A stretch of DNA of 56,125 nucleotides. Origin: Syntrophales bacterium (GTDB lineage: Bacteria; Desulfobacterota; Syntrophia; Syntrophales; UBA8958). How positions within the stretch are numbered: the stretch's first letter is position 1; each line of letters starts with the position of its first letter. The DNA is taken from the NCBI GenBank assembly GCA_026416455.1, contig JAOAFE010000013.1, forward strand, positions 1-56,125. The letters run 5' to 3'. Position numbers and translations under genes: made by a program. The notes below the pieces were generated by a model that searched no databases, was not told where the DNA came from, and worked only from the letters and a program-made list of their open reading frames with translations. Positions 3,902 to 50,368 of this stretch are shown here, piece after piece.

Positions 3902-5360
3902 ACGAATCTTTCATCCAAAGAGGATTGCCATCGTAGGCGTCTCAACTCAAGACTGGGGATTCGGTCGCGGCATCATGGATTCCCTGATCTCCATCGGTTT
4001 CGAGGGGGAAATTTATCCAGTAAACCCAAAAGGGGGGGAAATTTATGGACGGAAGATATATCCCCGGGTCGAGGATATCCCCGAAGACATTGACTTCGCC
4101 ATCATCGCCGTAACGGCTCCACTCGTACCGGCCTCCCTCGATGCCTGCCGCAGAAAAGGGGCTGCGGGCGCGGAAATTCTTTCCGCTGGCTTCCGCGAAC
4201 TGGGAACCAAAGAGGGCATTGCCTTAGAAGAAGCCATCAAGGCGGAGGCCAAAAAGGGCATTCGCGTCATTGGACCAAACTGTTTCGGTATTTACTGCCC
4301 CAAAAGTGGCCTTACTCTGCTTCCTGGACCTGATTTGAGCCGCAAGACGGGACCTGTAGCCTTTCTTTCCCAAAGCGGAGGGATGGCAATCGATCTTGCC
4401 TTCATGGGCATGTGGATGGGCTTCTCCTTCAGCAAGGTTGTCAGTTTTGGGAACGGTGCCGATTTAAGAGAAGTTGACTTTCTCGAATATCTGGCCCACG
4501 ACGAGGAGACAGGCATAATTGCCCTCTATATAGAGGGAGTAGAAGATGGAAAAAGATTTATCCAGGCTGTGAAAAAAACGGCAGCGAAAAAGCCGGTGAT
4601 CATTTACAAAGGTGGATTGTCCGAGTCAGGGAAAAGGGCGGTTGCAAGCCACACTGCCTCTATGGGGGGGCAAAAAGAAATCTGGGAAGCCTTAATAAAG
4701 CAAGCCGGTGCCGTTCAGGTCCATAGTTTCCGGGAGTTATGCCACACAATTCAAGCCTTTGCTATGTTACCACCCCGGGTATACAAAGGAATGACGGTCT
4801 TGGGCGGTGGAGGAGCCTTAGGAGTTTCAGCGTGTGATGCCGCCGAAGAAAATGGGCTGACCTTTCCTCCCTTGTCGGGTGCCATCTATGAAAACATTCT
4901 CTTTTCATTGCCTAAACCGGGATCAAGTGCAGCCAACCCGATCGACGTGGCCAACCCCTTCGTCCCACCCCAGACTCTAGGTTTCGTCATGCAGGAAGCG
5001 GCCAAGGACGAGCGCATAGATATCCAGGTACAGATCACTCTCTTCTATCACTTTAAACAGATGGTCACGCGTTTTAAAATGGGAGCCTTAAAAGACATTG
5101 TCCCCGTCGACCAGTACGTTGAAGCAGCTTTCGAGGCGAAAGAAAAAACAGGAAAACCTATAGTTATTGTTCTCCCCAACTGTCGCCAGGAATTGACCGA
5201 TTTGGATGTGGAAGAGGTTATCAGAAGGGCAAAAGAAGGATTCCATCAAAGGGGTATTCCCGTTTTTCACGATTTAACGGAGGCGATGAAAGCAATTAGA
5301 AACGTGTCACTGTACTATGAAAGGAAAAATCGCTTATTGACGGACCCGAGCCTTTCGTGA
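3876..5360 (+). CDS. NDP-forming acyl-CoA synthetase, alpha-subunit-like
   Basis: The 494-residue protein matches the alpha part of ADP-forming acetate/acyl-CoA ligases (succinyl-CoA synthetase superfamily). It has an N-terminal CoA-binding Rossmann domain (IAIVGVSTQ about residue 18; PVNPKGGEIYG) and two ligase-CoA domains. The phospho-accepting His lies in ASHTASMGG. These enzymes interconvert acyl-CoA and acid with ATP synthesis from ADP. The beta subunit (ATP-grasp) needed for full catalysis is neither fused nor adjacent. The enzyme must therefore use a distant partner or act alone as a CoA-binding protein. The ATG at 3876 follows AGGAGAAG; another ATG at 3871 is out of frame. A paralogue with the same missing partner lies at 15600-17066. 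Confidence 0.88.
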   Translation: MSTLNVDFERIFHPKRIAIVGVSTQDWGFGRGIMDSLISIGFEGEIYPVNPKGGEIYGRKIYPRVEDIPEDIDFAIIAVTAPLVPASLDACRRKGAAGAEILSAGFRELGTKEGIALEEAIKAEAKKGIRVIGPNCFGIYCPKSGLTLLPGPDLSRKTGPVAFLSQSGGMAIDLAFMGMWMGFSFSKVVSFGNGADLREVDFLEYLAHDEETGIIALYIEGVEDGKRFIQAVKKTAAKKPVIIYKGGLSESGKRAVASHTASMGGQKEIWEALIKQAGAVQVHSFRELCHTIQAFAMLPPRVYKGMTVLGGGGALGVSACDAAEENGLTFPPLSGAIYENILFSLPKPGSSAANPIDVANPFVPPQTLGFVMQEAAKDERIDIQVQITLFYHFKQMVTRFKMGALKDIVPVDQYVEAAFEAKEKTGKPIVIVLPNCRQELTDLDVEEVIRRAKEGFHQRGIPVFHDLTEAMKAIRNVSLYYERKNRLLTDPSLS

Positions 5361-5375
5361 AAGACTTTAAACGTT

Positions 5376-8357
5376 ATGGTAGTGCGCATCGAAGTAGGAT
5401 TTAAATCGCACGTAATAGACGCCCAAGGGGAAAAGATTGCCCGACGTATCAGAGATCACCTAGGCTTACCAGTTGATTCTGTACGCACAGTCGAAGTCTA
5501 CACCTTAGAAGGGGACTTCACCAACGAAGAGCTAGAGGAAATCGCGAGAGGACCCCTTTCCGACCCCATCATTCAGGAATACAGGATTGGCCAACCTCTG
5601 GCCTGCCAATTTGACTGGCTTATCGAAGTGGGTTATCGGCCTGGAGTTACTGATAACGTAGGGAAAACGGCGAAAGAAGCGATTTTACTACTGTTGGCGA
5701 GAGACAAAGACGAACAACTAAACGTTTACACATCCCGCCAATATGTGATTACAGGTACATTAACAAAAAAAGAGGCTGAATCAATAGCATCTAATCTGCT
5801 TGCCAACGATCTCATTGAACATTACCGAATAGTAAGTTTTAAAGATTGGGATTGCAAACAAGGATTATCCCCTTACGTGCCTCGGGTGATGGAGCATAAC
5901 GAACCCCACACGGAAAAAATTGACTTAAACGTTGAAGATGAAGAGCTTATCTCCATCAGCGAATCGCGTATTTTGGCTCTTAATATTGAAGAAATGAGAG
6001 CAATTAGAACTTATTTAAAGGACAAACATGTAATCGAGGCGCGAAAAAAGGTAGGACTCGACCATCGCATTACTGACGTGGAGCTAGAATGTATAGCACA
6101 AACCTGGTCGGAACATTGCAAACATAAGATCTTCAATGCACAGATTAGATACGAAGACGACCAGAAAAAGGTAATGACAATAGATTCTCTCTTCGAAACA
6201 TTCATCAAAAAAGCAACTCAAAAGGTAAGAGAGGCAAAAGGAAAAGACGACATATGTCTGTCCGTGTTTTCCGATAACGCCGGCGTAATAAAATTCACAG
6301 AAGACTACAACCTCGTATTTAAAGTAGAAACCCACAATTCACCCTCAGCCCTCGATCCTTATGGTGGAGCTTTGACGGGCATCGTGGGAGTGAACCGTGA
6401 TCCCTTTGGCACGGGCAAAGGGGCTAAGCTCATCTTCAATACCGACGTTTTCTGCTTTGCCCGGCCGGACTATGATCAACCCCTACCTCCACGTATTCTC
6501 CACCCTCGTCGGATATTGGAAGGGGTAAGAGAGGGAGTGGAACACGGGGGAAACAAGAGCGGAATTCCCACCGTAAATGGATGTATTGTATTCGACGATC
6601 GTTATCTAGGAAAGCCTTTGGTCTACTGCGGTACCGGTGGCATAATGCCCTCTACCATCAAAGGAGAGGCCTCTCATAAGAAGGAGATCCGCCCCGGGGA
6701 TTTAATCGTCATGACGGGAGGACGAATAGGAAAGGATGGTATTCACGGAGCCACATTTTCTTCCCAAGAGCTCCATGAGGGATCACCTGTTACGGCCGTC
6801 CAGATCGGTGACCCCATCACCCAAAAGAAAATGATCGACTTTCTTCTCGTCGCCCGCGATCGCGGACTATATCGTACTCTAACGGACAATGGAGCAGGAG
6901 GGCTGTCTTCGTCGGTCGGAGAGACGGCAAGACTATCGGGCGGCTGCGAGATGGACCTCAAACGCGCCCCCCTCAAATATCAGGGATTAAATCCCTGGGA
7001 AATTCTCGTGTCCGAATCCCAAGAGAGGATGACAGTCGCTGTACCACCGGAAAAAATTTCCGACTTTCTCGAACTGGCCCGAAAAATGGATGTGGAGGCT
7101 ACAGTTTTAGGTCAATACACGGATACGGGCATGTTTCACGTCCGTTATGGGGATGAAACGGTCGCCTTCCTCCATTTGGACTTCCTTCATGAAGGGCTCC
7201 CTCAAATGAAACTCTCCGCTCGATGGTCACCACCAAGGCGGGATGAGACTCCCCCTCCCCCATATCCAGCCCATATGGGCAATGCCCTGAAAGCCATGTT
7301 GGGAAGGCTAAATATCTGTAGCAAAGAGTGGGTCGTGAGGCAATACGACCACGAAGTTCAAGGGGGGAGTGTGGTCAAACCTCTCACTGGTGCAGAAAAC
7401 GATGGGCCCTCCGATGCGGCCGTCATCCGTCCGTTACTCGATTCTTTTGTCGGAGTCGTCGTGGCGAATGGCATCTGTCCCCGTTACGGAGATATAGATA
7501 CGTACCATATGGCAGCCTGCGCGATTGACGAAGCAGTTAGAAATGCCATTGCCGTGGGTGGTTCCTTGGATCATCTGGCCGGTTTGGATAACTTCTGTTG
7601 GTGCGACCCCGTGGCCTCCGAGAAAAATCCCGATGGAGAATACAAATTGGCTCAACTTGTGCGGGCCAATATGGCCCTCTACGACATCACAACGGCTTAC
7701 GGCATCCCCTGCATTTCGGGGAAAGACAGCATGAAAAACGATTACGCCATAGGAAATATAAAGATCTCCATTCCTCCCACCCTGCTGTTCTCCGTCATCG
7801 GCCGCATTGATGATGTAAGAAAAGCGGTGACGATGGATGCCAAGCGCCCAGGAGACCTAGTATACGTACTGGGAGTGACAAAAAGAGAAATGGGTGGCTC
7901 CGAATGGTATGCCATGCACGGCCTCATTGGACATTCCGTCCCTCATGTCGAACCTGAGGAAGCTAAAAGACTATATCAGGCATTAAGCCTAGCCATCCGG
8001 CGAGGACTGATCGCCTCGGCCCATGATTGTTCAGATGGCGGTTTGGGTTGTGCTTTGGCAGAAGTGGCCATGGCCGGAGGTTGGGGTCTGGAGATAGACT
8101 TAAGGCAGGTACCCCAAAAGGGGATAGACCGAGATGATGAATTACTCTTTTCGGAGTCCCAAAGTCGTTTTGTCGTCACCGTATCTCCCCATCATCAAAA
8201 GGACTTTGAAGACACCATAGCAGGTCTACCGTGGGGTCTCGTAGGGGAAGTGGTAAACCGCACATGCCTGACGGTGATCGGTCTTTCAGGGGAGATAATT
8301 ATGGACGAAGACATCTACGCTTTGAAGGCAGCATGGAAGGCCCCTCTTAATTTTTAA
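5376..8357 (+). CDS. purL: FGAM synthase, tandem PurS-PurL fusion
   Basis: PurL converts FGAR, ATP and glutamine-derived ammonia to FGAM in purine synthesis. The 993-residue product is longer than small PurL (about 740). Residues about 1-75 and 80-157 each read as a PurS domain: the second has [14 protein letters not shown] and ends [12 protein letters not shown], the classical PurS ending. The PurL body follows (about 190-993), with [44 protein letters not shown] and a second AIR-synthase half with [10 protein letters not shown]. There is no glutaminase domain at the C terminus; it is the separate purQ gene 10 bases downstream. Large PurL enzymes contain a PurS-dimer-like N domain plus a fused glutaminase, so this is an intermediate architecture. 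Confidence 0.94.
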
Positions 8358-24291: not shown

Positions 24292-25137
24292 ATGTATCGC
24301 ACAAAAATAATCTCCCACCGGGGAATGAAAATGCAGGTGTCTTCACTACGACCCATTGAAATCATTGCCGCAATAGGTCGAAAAGCCATTACCTATACTT
24401 CCAGCATGGGAGCTGCGGCCATCTTTTTCACCCTTGCCTTCATAAAGATTTTTTACCCCCGTCAAGGAAAGAAAATCGTAAGCCAGGTTTATTACATAGG
24501 CGCCAATTCAACTTTAATCATTTTGCTGGTCGGACTATTTACAGGTATGGTCCTGGGGCTTCAATCTTACCATGCCCTCATTAAAGTGGGAGCCCAAGGT
24601 GCTATGGGCACACTCGTCACCCTCTCTCTCGTCCGGGAACTAGGGCCGGTCCTTACGGCTATCATGATAACGGCCCGCGCTGGTTCGGCCATCACCGCCG
24701 AAATAGGGATCCAGCGCATCTCGGAACAGATAGACGCCCTCACCACCATGAGGATAGACCCTATCAGATACCTTATAAGTCCCCGCATCGCCGCCTCGTT
24801 CATTAGTTTCCCCCTTCTAACCGCTCTTTTCGATCTCATAGGGATCATTGGCGGTTACATATCTGGTGTACTTATCCTGGGAGCAAACGCGGGTACTTAC
24901 CTATACCGGGTGCAGGCTAGTACGGACATGAAGGATATAATGGATGGGTTCATTAAGGCCGTCGTCTTTGCCGCCATCGTTTCAGGTGTTTCCTGTTACA
25001 AAGGTTATTTTGCTCACATGCGTACGGACAGTCATGGGGCAAAAGCGGTGGGTATGGCCACCACCTCGTCCGTCGTAACCTCCTGTGTGTTTATTCTCAT
25101 CGCCGATTATGTGGTCACCTCTCTATTGCTTATTTAA
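24292..25137 (+). CDS. mlaE: Mla phospholipid transport permease
   Basis: MlaE is the inner-membrane permease of the Mla ABC system that moves phospholipids between outer and inner membranes. The 281-residue product has about five TM helices and the family core VGLFTGMVLGLQSYHAL, SLVRELGPVLTAIMITARAGSAITAEIG and the EQIDAL coupling region. The start is uncertain: ATG 24292 follows GGAAGGAG at about 11 bases, and ATG 24325 or 24331 would give a protein starting MKMQV or MQV. It heads a tight operon of mlaE, F, D, C and A. A TTGACA at 24264 may be the -35, in which case the later starts are favoured. Confidence 0.94.
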   Translation: MYRTKIISHRGMKMQVSSLRPIEIIAAIGRKAITYTSSMGAAAIFFTLAFIKIFYPRQGKKIVSQVYYIGANSTLIILLVGLFTGMVLGLQSYHALIKVGAQGAMGTLVTLSLVRELGPVLTAIMITARAGSAITAEIGIQRISEQIDALTTMRIDPIRYLISPRIAASFISFPLLTALFDLIGIIGGYISGVLILGANAGTYLYRVQASTDMKDIMDGFIKAVVFAAIVSGVSCYKGYFAHMRTDSHGAKAVGMATTSSVVTSCVFILIADYVVTSLLLI

Positions 25138-25149
25138 GGAGACATCTCT

Positions 25150-26301
25150 ATGGCGGAGCCTCTTATCGAGTTTAAGAACGTGACCAAAAGATTCGGTCAA
25201 AAAACCGTCCTCGATGGCGTGAATTTAAAAATTTACGAAGGAGAAGTAACGACCATAATCGGTTTGAGCGGTGCGGGAAAAAGTGTTCTCCTTAAACACA
25301 TCATAGGTCTCCTTAAGCCCGATGGTGGAGAGATTCTCTTTCGGGGCAAACCCCTAGCAGAGATGAGCCGGGTCGAAAAAATAGAGAATTTTAAGCAAAT
25401 AAGCTATATGTTCCAAAACAATGCATTATTTGACTCCCTGACTGTTTATGAAAACGTGGCCCTCCCCTTAGTAGAAACTTCAAATATGGATCGGAAAGAG
25501 ATCCATCGCCGAGTAATGGAAAGAATCGAGCAAATGGAGCTCACCGAGGCCGTAGATAAATATCCATCTGAATTATCGGGGGGGATGCAAAAGCGAGCCG
25601 CTTTAGCCCGGGCCCTGGTAACCAACCCGCATATCGTCCTCTTTGATGAACCTACCTCGGGTCAGGACCCGGTCCGGAAATATGGTATCCTCACCATGAT
25701 TGCCCAATATCAAAAAAGGTTCGGCTTTACCGCCATATTGGTAAGCCACGAAATACCAGATGTATACTTTATCTCCAATCGCATCTTGGCCCTGTATCAA
25801 GGACGGATCGTCTTCCAGGGCACCCCAGAAGAATTAGAACACTTCGATCACCCCTTTCAGGACGAAGTGATCAAGAGCTTGGAAGAACTGGAGCAAGAGC
25901 TGACAGGCGTGTATTCTAGACGATTATTCAAAGTTCAAAACCGCCATCAACTGATGAGGAAGCTGGGAGATGAACATTTCTGTCTGTTTCTTTTCACAGT
26001 CGAACCACCAGAATGCCAGTTGGTTCATGAGATCGGCTTCGAATTAGCCCGCATTTTAAATTCCCGGGGAGGATTTACCGTTCGAAACAGTATGAATGAA
26101 TTCATTGCCGTCCTTCCTTACACCACTTTGAGTGAGGGAGCAGATATGATAAAAAATTTAACTAATGACCGTTGGCGCGACTTACACCTCCCTTCTGGCA
26201 CGGTGATAAGAGTTGGGAGTACAATCGGGCATCCCACTGATGAGATAAATAGCTTGATAGCCAAGACGAGACAGGGAGAGAAAGAAATTGTGCGATTTTG
26301 A
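25150..26301 (+). CDS. mlaF: Mla ATPase with C-terminal degenerate GGDEF-like domain
   Basis: Residues 1-245 form a normal MlaF ATPase that powers lipid transport: Walker A GLSGAGKS (38-45), signature ELSGGMQKR, and Walker B IVLFDEPTSGQDP. The protein is 383 residues long; MlaF is usually about 270. The extra part (about 250-383) follows the layout of a GGDEF domain: VQNRHQLMRKL (like LxNR), a hydrophobic strand LFLFTV, a helix HEIGFELARIL, then VRNSMNEFIAVLPYT where active enzymes have RxGGDEFxxLLP. VIRVGSTIG follows (like VTxSxG), then a final helix with AKTRQGEKEI. The GGDEF residues are lost (SMNEF), so cyclase activity is unlikely; binding of a nucleotide or protein regulation is possible. 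This domain call is my reading by eye. Confidence 0.9.
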   Translation: MAEPLIEFKNVTKRFGQKTVLDGVNLKIYEGEVTTIIGLSGAGKSVLLKHIIGLLKPDGGEILFRGKPLAEMSRVEKIENFKQISYMFQNNALFDSLTVYENVALPLVETSNMDRKEIHRRVMERIEQMELTEAVDKYPSELSGGMQKRAALARALVTNPHIVLFDEPTSGQDPVRKYGILTMIAQYQKRFGFTAILVSHEIPDVYFISNRILALYQGRIVFQGTPEELEHFDHPFQDEVIKSLEELEQELTGVYSRRLFKVQNRHQLMRKLGDEHFCLFLFTVEPPECQLVHEIGFELARILNSRGGFTVRNSMNEFIAVLPYTTLSEGADMIKNLTNDRWRDLHLPSGTVIRVGSTIGHPTDEINSLIAKTRQGEKEIVRF

Positions 26302-26316
26302 CCGTATGGAGGTCTT

Positions 26317-26790
26317 ATGAACAAATATAAAATGGAAGTTGTCGTCGGCATCTTTGTTATATTCGGTCTCGTCTGCGTGGGTTATATGACCGTAAAATTA
26401 GGTCATGTTTCACTTTTTGGCGATGATACCTACGCCCTCACGGCCCGGTTTACTTCTGTGACGGGGCTGAGAACGGGAAGCCCCGTTTACATCTGGGGCA
26501 TTGAAGTAGGGAGAGTAGAAAATATAAGTATGGATCAAAGGGAACAGAAGGCGGTTGTCGAAATAAGGATCAAGAAGGGGGTCGTAATCTACGACGATGC
26601 GATTGCTTCGATAAAAACCGAAGGGCTGATAGGAGACAAATACCTGAATATCGATCCGGGTGGAAGCGGTGAGCCCCTCACCAATGGAGGCGTAATCGCC
26701 GATACGCAACCAGCCGTTGAAGTAGTTGACCTAATAGGTAAGTATGTATTCGGGGATATAAAGACATCAAAGGAGAAGAAGGGCGAATGA
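26317..26790 (+). CDS. mlaD: Mla substrate-binding MCE protein
   Basis: This is a 157-residue single-MCE-domain protein anchored by one N-terminal TM helix (residues about 7-28). The MCE core carries the family features YALTARFTSVTGLRTGSPV, GIEVGRVENI and SIKTEGLIGDKYLNI. MlaD forms a hexameric ring on the MlaEF complex and passes lipid to MlaC. Its length matches short MlaD proteins. It begins 15 bases after mlaF and overlaps mlaC by 4 bases, so translation is probably coupled. Confidence 0.94.
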   Translation: MNKYKMEVVVGIFVIFGLVCVGYMTVKLGHVSLFGDDTYALTARFTSVTGLRTGSPVYIWGIEVGRVENISMDQREQKAVVEIRIKKGVVIYDDAIASIKTEGLIGDKYLNIDPGGSGEPLTNGGVIADTQPAVEVVDLIGKYVFGDIKTSKEKKGE

Positions 26791-27386
26791 GAAGGAAGTG
26801 GGTTTTAATCTTCTGTGTTTTCACGTTCTTTTTTCCGGAATGGGCGACGGCCACGAGCGCTCTGGAAACCGTGCGGGTGAACGTAAACAAAGTATTGGAA
26901 ATACTAAGAGATCCGACCCGCAAATCACAGTTTGCAAAAGAAATTAAAGAGGATCGCATTCGACCCGTTTTTAAAGAAATGTTCGACGACGTAGAGTTGT
27001 CGAAGAGGACTTTAGGACGCAACTGGACGTCCTTGAATTCAGCCCAGCAAGAGGAATTCGTGACTCTTTTTCGAAGAATTTTGGAAAACGCTTACGCCGA
27101 CAAAATACTTTCTTATACGAACGAGCAGGTCGTCTTCGATCGAGAGGTGACGATCGCACCCAACCGGGCGGAAGTTTATACGCGGGTAATCACCTCTTCC
27201 AAACAGATACCTGTCGTCTACAGAGTAATATTTAAAGATGGTACCTGGAAGGTATATGATGTCGTAATAGAAAACGTAAGTCTCGTCCAGAATTATCGCA
27301 GTCAATTTAACGACATCCTCTCTAAGGAGACGCCGGAAAAACTTCTAGAAACTATGAGGAAGAAATTGCAGGAGAAGAAAGCGTAA
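26787..27386 (+). CDS. mlaC: Mla periplasmic lipid carrier
   Basis: MlaC is the soluble periplasmic shuttle carrying phospholipid between MlaA and MlaD. The 199-residue precursor has a Sec signal peptide (about 1-23, FFFPEWATAT). The MlaC/Ttg2D fold follows, with DVELSKRTLGRNW, FVTLFRRILENAYADKI, VYRVIFKDGTWKVYDVVIENVS and NYRSQF. ATG overlaps the mlaD stop. Length and motifs are typical. Confidence 0.93.
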   Translation: MRRKWVLIFCVFTFFFPEWATATSALETVRVNVNKVLEILRDPTRKSQFAKEIKEDRIRPVFKEMFDDVELSKRTLGRNWTSLNSAQQEEFVTLFRRILENAYADKILSYTNEQVVFDREVTIAPNRAEVYTRVITSSKQIPVVYRVIFKDGTWKVYDVVIENVSLVQNYRSQFNDILSKETPEKLLETMRKKLQEKKA

Positions 27387-28199
27387 ATGAGGAAAAGTGT
27401 ACATACCCTCATTTTCATTCTTACGGCCTGGACCTTAAGTGTGGGAATCCTGGCTCCTGCTTACGGTTCTTCCGAGATGCCATCGCCAGAAAAAGACATC
27501 AAGGTGAATGAGACAGTTGACGAATACGGAGATGAAGAACCCATAACCATCTACGACCCGTTGGAACCTTTCAACCGCGTAATGTTCGAATTTAATGATA
27601 AACTTTACTTTTGGGTGGTGAAACCTGTTGCCCAAGGCTATGGAGAGGTCATGCCGGAGCCGGTAAGAGCAGGGGTCAATCGCTTCTTTCATAACCTCAG
27701 TTTTCCCGTAAGATTTATCAACTGTCTTTTGCAGGCAAATTTCAAAGGGGCTCTGACCGAACTGGGGCGTTTTTCTATTAATACCATTTGGGGCATAGGC
27801 GGGATTCTGGATCCGGCAGGCAATGAAGACATCAATCTAACCCCGTACGAAGAAGATTTCGGTCGTACTTTAGCCTCATACGGAATCGGTCACGGCTTCT
27901 TTATCATGTGGCCTATCTTTGGCCCCTCAAGCTTGAGAGACACCTTCGGCTCCCTAGGCGACCACTTTCTTCAGCCTGTAAGCTACATCAGACCGTGGTA
28001 TACAGAAACGGCCATTAAGGGATACGATAAAATAAACGACGCCTCCTTAAGAATAGGAGATTACGAATCTCTCAAGGAAGCGGCCATAGATGCTTATGTA
28101 GCTGTACGCAACGCTTACATACAACATCGAGAAAAAAGAGGAGGCCGAACAGGATTCATTGCGCCACCGACGAAGCAGAAGAGGGAAAGTGATAAATGA
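27387..28199 (+). CDS. mlaA: Mla outer-membrane component, no lipobox
   Basis: The 270-residue VacJ/MlaA homologue has the family signatures DPLEPFNRVMFEFNDKLYFWV, RFSINTIWGIGGILDPAG, EDFGRTLASYGIGHG and PIFGPSSLRDTFG. MlaA removes phospholipids from the outer leaflet of the outer membrane. E. coli MlaA is a lipoprotein, but the leader here (about 1-27, ending APAYGSSE) has no Cys and so no lipobox. It should be cut by signal peptidase I and held by its helical ring alone. The gene starts directly at the mlaC stop and overlaps the next gene by 4 bases. Confidence 0.93.
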   Translation: MRKSVHTLIFILTAWTLSVGILAPAYGSSEMPSPEKDIKVNETVDEYGDEEPITIYDPLEPFNRVMFEFNDKLYFWVVKPVAQGYGEVMPEPVRAGVNRFFHNLSFPVRFINCLLQANFKGALTELGRFSINTIWGIGGILDPAGNEDINLTPYEEDFGRTLASYGIGHGFFIMWPIFGPSSLRDTFGSLGDHFLQPVSYIRPWYTETAIKGYDKINDASLRIGDYESLKEAAIDAYVAVRNAYIQHREKRGGRTGFIAPPTKQKRESDK

Positions 28200-48592: not shown

Positions 48593-49046
48593 TTGCCCTC
48601 CCACGCCGCTGTAACTCCATATCTACTTCTTTGAGAAACTCCAAATCTCTTTTTATCTCATCGATCTCTTTTTGACACTTTTCCTGATTTCTTTTTATCT
48701 CCTGTCGGGCCGCCGAAAGTATCTCTCTTGCTTCTCTCAGTTCTCGCTCCAGTCTTTCCATCTCCGCTCTGTTTTTTTCAGCCGCTTCATTAGTCGAGGC
48801 CAGCTCATTCAATAGCTTTAAGTAAGCCTCCGCCGAGACCCGAATTTGCCCAGGGGTGTTTTCCCGTAAACACTCGCTTAAGCTCATTTGGGCATCCCTA
48901 TATTTATCGGCCAATATCTCTTCCAATCCCCGCTGAAAAAGTTTTATGGCTTCATCATTTTTATGAGAAGGGGCTTCCTTTGGTCCAGAAACACACGCCA
49001 TTAACAGCAGAAAAATGATTATAACTGTATACCTTCCTATTTGCAC
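48582..49046 (-). CDS. coiled-coil lipoprotein downstream of GGDEF gene
   Basis: This 154-residue lipoprotein has a signal peptide with lipobox LLMAC (Cys18), then a TPR-like helical stretch (AIKLFQRGLEEILADKYRDAQ) and a long coiled coil (about 85-145, Glu/Arg-rich). It begins at GTG 49046, with AGGAGG about 12 bases upstream, and overlaps the GGDEF gene by 10 bases. The pairing of a HAMP-type membrane signalling protein with such a lipoprotein recalls QseE(GlrK)-QseG, where the lipoprotein controls the sensor. Here the sensor output is GGDEF instead of kinase. The analogy is inference. Confidence 0.8.
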   Translation of the reverse strand: MQIGRYTVIIIFLLLMACVSGPKEAPSHKNDEAIKLFQRGLEEILADKYRDAQMSLSECLRENTPGQIRVSAEAYLKLLNELASTNEAAEKNRAEMERLERELREAREILSAARQEIKRNQEKCQKEIDEIKRDLEFLKEVDMELQRRGRAIRP

Positions 49047-50368
49047 CTCTTAACATCCTCCTGAGTCAGAAATTTATTTCCGGGGATGGTTTTACCCACT
49101 GCCTTGACCTCAGCTGCAGCCCGTGCCATCTCTACGGCATTTCTGTACAGAGAACCATCATCCGTCACAATTGAAAGGGTGATCGTGATGAGGGGAAATC
49201 TTTGCATCTCTCCCTTTCTATCCGGAGCCCAGATATGGCCTCTCATTTTATCTTCGGCTAAATAGAGGTGAGCTGTTCGGTCGGTAAAATGTTTTACTAT
49301 ATACTCACTCATCAGTTTCACCCGATCGGGATTCCCAATAATAACGAAGTCGTCACCCCCAATATGCCCAATAAAATCCTCATTATTTCCCCCTTTTTTT
49401 CGTGCCTCCTCTAATAGTTTGGCCGTTTCCTTTATAAATTCACTTCCCCAGGCATAACCGTAGACATCGGCATAAGGTTTAAAGTGGTCGAGATCAACAT
49501 GACATAAAGAAAAAGTAATTCCTTGCTTCAACCTCCGCTCTATCTCGCGTTCGATGGCAAGATTCCCAGGCAAACCCGTAAGGGGACTAGCATCCAGGTA
49601 AAGAGCCTCCAACTCCTTAAGACGACCAGCCATATAGTTAAAGGCCGACGCCAGAAGACCGATTTCATCTTCTCTCTCTACTTTAACTCGGACGTCGAAA
49701 TTACCCTCTCCGATCTTGACCGCCGCATCCTTTAATCTCATAACGGGCCCAGAAATGTGAATAATAAAAACTATGGCCAGAGTAAACCCGCAAACCAAAC
49801 TGAAACCGGCTAATAAGGCCGTAATCTGCATCGCATTGAGACTCTTTCTGTTAATTTCTTTCATACCGCGGTCTATTTCCCCTTCCCCGCGCTGAATTAA
49901 AATGTTTAACACGTGGTTCATCTCGTGCATTAGTGTATCCGTCTCACGAAGAAAAGCGGCTCGATTATCAATGTTTTTAAATTCTTCCACATTGTCGACT
50001 ACCCGAAGAAATAGCCGATCGTAATCTTCCTTTTTTTCTCTCAAAATGGCTACTTCCCCTTTTCTTACTACTTTAGAATGCTGGAGACGGGAGAGAAAAA
50101 GATTTACTTCTTGGCTGCGTGTCCAATAAAGACTTGCCATTTCCGGCTCCCGCAAAACGATATACTTCTTTGCTAACTCTTCCATACCTAAAAGGACTCC
50201 CATCATGCTTTTCGCATTTTCAACCATTTCAAAATAATTGGATACTATGTGGTCGGCCCTCTTTTTTAGGTCATACAACTCGTAGATGGCAAATCCACTG
50301 GTAAAGATCATAAAAAGGGAGCCTATAAAATAGGCAAACAGCAATTTTACTCTAATGGAAAATCTCAA
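49037..50368 (-). CDS. membrane HAMP-GGDEF protein (diguanylate cyclase)
   Basis: The 443-residue protein has a TM helix (about 8-28) and a four-helix-bundle-like periplasmic domain (about 30-180, with repeated helical heptads). A second TM (about 184-206), a HAMP linker (about 207-258, ending EDEIGLLASAFNYMAGRL) and a GGDEF domain follow. The active-site loop is GHIGGDDF (about 344), a functional variant of GGDEF, and DLDHFKPY holds the metal-binding Asp. The residues at the usual RxxD inhibitory site read NNED, so product inhibition through that site is not expected. It makes cyclic-di-GMP by inference, or cGAMP-type products if diverged. Confidence 0.9.
   Translation of the reverse strand: MRFSIRVKLLFAYFIGSLFMIFTSGFAIYELYDLKKRADHIVSNYFEMVENAKSMMGVLLGMEELAKKYIVLREPEMASLYWTRSQEVNLFLSRLQHSKVVRKGEVAILREKKEDYDRLFLRVVDNVEEFKNIDNRAAFLRETDTLMHEMNHVLNILIQRGEGEIDRGMKEINRKSLNAMQITALLAGFSLVCGFTLAIVFIIHISGPVMRLKDAAVKIGEGNFDVRVKVEREDEIGLLASAFNYMAGRLKELEALYLDASPLTGLPGNLAIEREIERRLKQGITFSLCHVDLDHFKPYADVYGYAWGSEFIKETAKLLEEARKKGGNNEDFIGHIGGDDFVIIGNPDRVKLMSEYIVKHFTDRTAHLYLAEDKMRGHIWAPDRKGEMQRFPLITITLSIVTDDGSLYRNAVEMARAAAEVKAVGKTIPGNKFLTQEDVKRCK

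Follow-up and report, generated by a model that had tools for sequence, protein, structure and literature searches.

The MlaF ATPase encoded in the window (the whole 56,125-nucleotide stretch of Syntrophales DNA that was analysed) is extended at its C terminus, and sequence profiles together with a predicted fold identify residues ~249–383 as a degenerate GGDEF domain. MlaF is the motor of a pump that carries phospholipids from one of the two membranes to the other, and a working GGDEF domain produces the signal molecule c-di-GMP. MlaF with such a dead GGDEF domain is common to many delta-type proteobacteria, in which the domain probably holds or regulates the two motor subunits instead of MlaB. 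The earlier note had proposed that this MlaF is joined to a domain of GGDEF fold that lacks the catalytic residues, a proposal with which the sequence profiles, the fold prediction and a broad family of relatives all agree. The fusion extends GGDEF domains to the ATPases of ABC transporters, a combination not found in the open-access papers searched, where no description of an MlaF-GGDEF fusion was found either. The features concerned are as follows.

24292–25137, + strand: mlaE, permease of 281 aa without a fused STAS domain (NCBIfam TIGR00056, 239 bits, over the cut-off of 212)
25150–26301, + strand: mlaF-GGDEF fusion gene, 383 aa (open reading frame, full-length relatives)
25150–25863, + strand: ABC ATPase (NBD) part of MlaF, residues 1–238 (PF00005, 1.3e-35)
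25858–25905, + strand: predicted amphipathic linker helix, residues 237–252, a coiled-coil-like stalk (hydrophobic fractions, helix in the full-length model)
25894–26298, + strand: degenerate GGDEF domain, residues 249–383 (Pfam, PDB profile, hhalign, structure model)
25897–25929, + strand: N-terminal GGDEF motif ELTGVYSRRLF, residues 250–260, counterpart of DxLTGLxNRRxF
26089–26103, + strand: SMNEF, residues 314–318, where the catalytic GG[DE]EF would be
26317–26790, + strand: mlaD of the short, single-MCE type, 157 aa (TIGR04430, 148 bits, over the cut-off)
26787–27386, + strand: mlaC, HpnM-like subgroup (HpnM 81 bits, MlaC 31 bits, both below cut-off)
27387–28199, + strand: mlaA (MlaA 125 bits, 3.4e-36, below the equivalog cut-off)
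49037–50368, − strand: HAMP-GGDEF protein with the signature GGDDF

The mlaF frame begins with ATG, is free of frameshifts, and lies 12 nt downstream of mlaE (PF02405 match at 24475–25122) and 15 nt upstream of mlaD within a complete, compact mlaE-mlaF-mlaD-mlaC-mlaA operon. The ATPase part contains all of the ABC motifs, namely Walker A (GLSGAGKS), the signature (LSGGMQ), Walker B (IVLFDEP) and the H-loop (His200), which were invariant in the alignment of relatives. These motifs and the synteny with mlaE, mlaD and mlaC place the protein in MlaF; the NCBIfam MlaF model was its best match, yet scored below the equivalog cut-off. The neighbourhood of the tailed mlaF genes was constant, with mlaE, mlaF, a short mlaD and mlaC, usually followed by mlaA. 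In the window's operon the hopanoid-associated HpnM model outscored MlaC for the mlaC gene. The window genome also encodes, in locus L121 (contig C22, ~124395–125441), an additional MlaE (400-aa frame) that has a STAS domain fused at its N terminus and is accompanied by a separate MlaF and MlaD, and a third MlaE near C22:216540.

The tail was not peculiar to the window. The 135–145 residues that follow the ATPase in the window MlaF had counterparts at the same position in the 17 best relatives, drawn from a scan of 84,980 genomes and including one that runs off its contig (L008). Complete tailed relatives measured 407–430 aa, and the window MlaF was the shortest at 383 aa because ~11 residues of the first helix of the domain and part of a later segment are missing. 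Joining of two genes by a frameshift or read-through was ruled out by the identical fusion in 50 genomes.

Membership of the tail in the GGDEF family was supported by several lines of evidence. Against Pfam GGDEF (PF00990), the window tail alone scored 18.1 bits, below the threshold of 23.8, and 16 of the 17 relatives matched (best 2.9e-10), with the tail of L010 reaching a significant 37.7 bits. A profile of the tails searched against all PDB sequences returned GGDEF proteins almost exclusively among the top matches, led by SadC (4wxo, 8.3e-10) and including DgcR, LapD, DgcB, PleD and WspR. Profile-profile alignment of the tails to a set of 16 canonical GGDEF domains encoded by related genomes gave a probability of 99.7% (hhalign, E 6.8e-26, 167 columns), and control alignments to MlaC, MlaD, MlaA and MlaE profiles all remained below 0.5%. 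An AlphaFold model of the window tail, built with its relatives, had a pLDDT of 78; the best Foldseek matches of this model were GGDEF domains, and alignment to GGDEF structures gave VIA Z scores up to 12.1 (139 residues, rmsd 3.5). Family-level similarity and predicted fold thus identify the tail as a true GGDEF family member, and the window copy taken by itself falls below the Pfam cut-off. The profile and fold evidence and the hhalign controls ruled out a chance resemblance. The only other family returned by NCBIfam was Txe/YoeB at E 0.17, which was judged noise. A full-length AlphaFold model from 17 sequences was of low confidence (ATPase pLDDT 60) and was not used for domain arrangement.

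The domain was found to begin slightly earlier than the LxNR-like motif of the earlier note suggests; the N-terminal motif ELTGVYSRRLF follows on helix 237–252. Among 56 tails, the hydrophobic positions of this helix (240/241, 244, 247, 251 and 254) were hydrophobic in fractions of 1.00/0.98, 0.86, 0.82, 1.00 and 0.96, and the helix runs straight into the LTG motif, as do the stalk helices of diguanylate cyclases. The motif itself, xELTG[LMV], was retained in nearly all tails (Gly 56/56, Leu 53/56, Thr 52/56), with the Asn of D-x-L-T-G-L-x-N-R replaced by Ser or Thr.

The residues required for catalysis have been lost. None of the 56 tails had a GG[DE]EF signature; the segment RNSMNEFIAVLP singled out by the earlier note was located at residues 312–323, with SMNEF at the GGDEF position. 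The metal-binding Asp (PleD D327) was replaced by Thr, Ser, Lys, Ala and others. Of the guanine-binding positions, N335 of PleD was Asn in 6 of 56 tails, and D344 was Gln in 42 and Asp in 1; the helix segment bearing both is deleted in the window tail. What survives in the tails is the xELTGL motif, the hydrophobic core, the SIG-motif Gly and the Arg that precedes the signature (56/56); Gly253 and Arg312 were invariant. With the signature and the metal and guanine positions gone, the reading as an active diguanylate cyclase was rejected, and the tail is almost certainly not a cyclase. The motif RxxD of the allosteric inhibitory site was missing from 50 tails, including that of the window. Control of the window copy by a nucleotide second messenger, one of two suggestions made for it, is not supported, as catalytic residues, guanine-binding residues and RxxD are all absent; the other suggestion, a GGDEF-fold interaction domain, is the best fit.

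A survey of MlaF across the phylum recovered the full-length tailed form in at least 50 of 395 sampled genomes, from 18 families, a lower bound as few candidates were scored per genome. Surveys of two other phyla, one that includes a Burkholderia locus (299 genomes) and one that includes an Acidobacteria locus (149 genomes), found none among these 448 genomes, with only the best 6–12 candidates scored in each. In a tree of the ATPase part, all 54 tailed rows grouped with 6 tail-less and 3 truncated rows (support 100/99), a pattern consistent with one old gain and several losses. In three loci of one genus (g3) of the window's own family, L101–L103, the GGDEF part was cleanly gone: the MlaF measured 286 aa and retained the linker helix, with no GGDEF remnant downstream. 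The GGDEF part therefore appears dispensable for the ATPase itself.

Among the close pairs that allowed its calculation, dN/dS of the tail was 0.04–0.35, which points to purifying selection on the domain in most lineages. Conservation of the tail equalled that of the ATPase in the f56 pair (tail dN/dS about 0.04) and the f74 pair; in most pairs the tail evolved faster than the ATPase. The window was an outlier, with only 28% tail identity to its nearest relative against 81% for the ATPase, where ~57% is usual for the tail. This divergence, together with the residues missing from the first helix, suggests that the window copy may be decaying.

In E. coli, removal of the C-terminal extension inactivates MlaF, and function is largely restored when a GCN4 coiled coil is attached at that site; the extension clasps the other subunit in a "handshake", and the system also needs MlaB, without which MlaF is not retained by MlaED (PMC7367683). 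The fused domain described here occupies the site of that GCN4 fusion, behind a heptad-like helix. E. coli MlaF of the MlaFEDB complex and the tailed MlaF share the Met of the LSGGM signature and an operon with MlaE, MlaD and MlaC (PMC7367683, PMC7790496), and both have an extra C-terminal segment after the ATPase. They differ in that E. coli has an extended tail of ~25 residues that wraps the neighbouring subunit and a separate STAS protein, MlaB, whereas the tailed form has a folded GGDEF domain of ~135–175 residues, an operon that includes MlaA, and no STAS_2 gene beside it. In the screened genomes, no tailed mlaF had a match to STAS_2 (PF13466, MlaB-type) less than 10 kb away, and the sole STAS_2 of the window genome was fused to another MlaE. 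Tail-less Mla operons in this phylum likewise lacked STAS_2 neighbours, so that a simple correlation in which the tail replaces MlaB was rejected as not specific; the sequence data are consistent with the tail possibly standing in for MlaB.

On the analogy with E. coli, the reading we favour, at a probability of about one half, is that the tail is a C-terminal domain for dimerisation or regulation, filling the roles that the MlaF tail and MlaB have in E. coli. The simplest mechanism that we infer is that the domains pair and thereby hold the dimer of MlaF together and regulate it. The two NBDs would each continue into the short amphipathic, coiled-coil-like helix and from there into GGDEF folds paired below the NBDs; this pair would raise the stability of the NBD dimer and the grip of MlaF on MlaE, and a ligand or partner bound to it could tune ATPase activity. 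In a subset of lineages (families f53, f56 and f89) the ligand may be c-di-GMP at a retained RxxD; for the window's lineage the likely options are limited to a structural role or partial decay. A conserved domain of a signalling family on the ATPase would offer a handle on how Mla is switched on and off, and also on how MlaF is kept at the transporter in the many bacteria that lack MlaB.

The tail could alternatively be a c-di-GMP receptor in which, as in PelD, the dead GGDEF domain binds c-di-GMP at the RxxD inhibitory site and couples lipid transport to the c-di-GMP level. RxxD was present at the exact position in 6 of 56 tails (L093, L094, L095, L133, L134 and L135), from three families and four genera, within the motif LRxxDxCxR; the strongly constrained f56 pair, the 8 PF00990 matches in the window genome and a second MlaF fusion in another phylum, described below, also favour this reading. 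As a general account it is unlikely, given the 50 tails without the motif and the A-x-x-G found in its place in most relatives of the window. The tails that keep RxxD, which sit away from the window in the tree, are candidate c-di-GMP receptors, and direct c-di-GMP control is plausible for that subset only. Degenerate GGDEF domains often act as interaction modules, and the tail might instead be a platform for docking a partner, such as an active diguanylate cyclase through GGDEF-GGDEF pairing or some other protein of the cytosol. Conservation is highest in the LTGL stalk and at the Gly and Arg of the active-site hairpin, not at catalytic residues, which agrees with docking, but no partner gene was consistently linked beyond mlaE, mlaD, mlaC and mlaA, and we regard this reading too as doubtful. 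Least probable by some way is that the domain is left over from an old fusion that has become neutral and is disappearing. The clean losses in the three g3 genomes, the six further clade members without a tail and the abnormal divergence in the window's lineage would fit such a remnant; retention across 18 families under purifying selection, the open frame in nearly all copies and the invariant Gly253 and Arg312 argue against it.

The second fusion was seen in the phylum of the Burkholderia locus, where matching MlaF frames longer than the ATPase occurred in 38 of 299 genomes. All six long MlaFs examined (L171–L176; for example L172 2980–4062 and L173 2335–3525) had an N-terminal extension of ~75–90 aa with two MshEN/GSPII-like repeats. 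A profile of the extension matched the c-di-GMP-binding GSPII/MshEN domains of PilF (7e-21), MshE (8e-10) and also PilB; single extension sequences gave no significant match in Pfam. MshEN domains bind c-di-GMP through a 24-residue motif with a conserved first Arg (PMC5013675), and this Arg was absent from each motif in all six extensions. The MshEN-like MlaF is possibly an independent fusion of a c-di-GMP-type domain. Two unrelated domains of this type on one ATPase make a link between Mla and signalling more interesting, if unproven. That Mla is under direct second-messenger control both in the GGDEF lineages with an inhibitory site and in the MshEN-like phylum, with a c-di-GMP-responsive MlaF having arisen twice, seems improbable.

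A folded domain fused after the NBD is also known from MetN (ferredoxin-like) and MalK and ModC (TOBE), from which the tailed MlaF differs in its GGDEF family and in serving a lipid transporter. The MetN-type domain has an alpha/beta ferredoxin-like fold, as does the GGDEF tail, and by analogy self-association under the NBDs would be expected. PelD and LapD likewise have GGDEF folds without catalysis, used for signalling or structure; the MlaF tail differs from them in being fused to a transporter ATPase and in having an inhibitory site in a minority of copies only. The three-component MlaEFD of Veillonella works without MlaB, as would the system described here, but has a long MlaD and no MlaC or MlaA, where the tailed-MlaF operon has a short MlaD with MlaC and MlaA (PMC10665443). 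Another Mla-like operon of the same order, with a 248-aa MlaF and a MlaD of ~490 aa, resembles the Veillonella type (PMC10665443).

The window's other GGDEF gene, at 49037–50368, had been called active-looking. It does encode a GGDEF protein; its signature is GGDDF rather than GG[DE]EF, and the change of the signature Glu to Asp makes its activity doubtful. Its segment GYAWGSEF places Ser at the position of the guanine-reading Asp, a replacement also found in the cGAMP-making Hypr GGDEF enzymes. Finally, two tailed mlaF genes were found in a single locus, L088 (genome G191), at 474–1829 and 4728–6032; one lies within an mlaEFDCA operon and the other, more diverged, directly follows mlaA.
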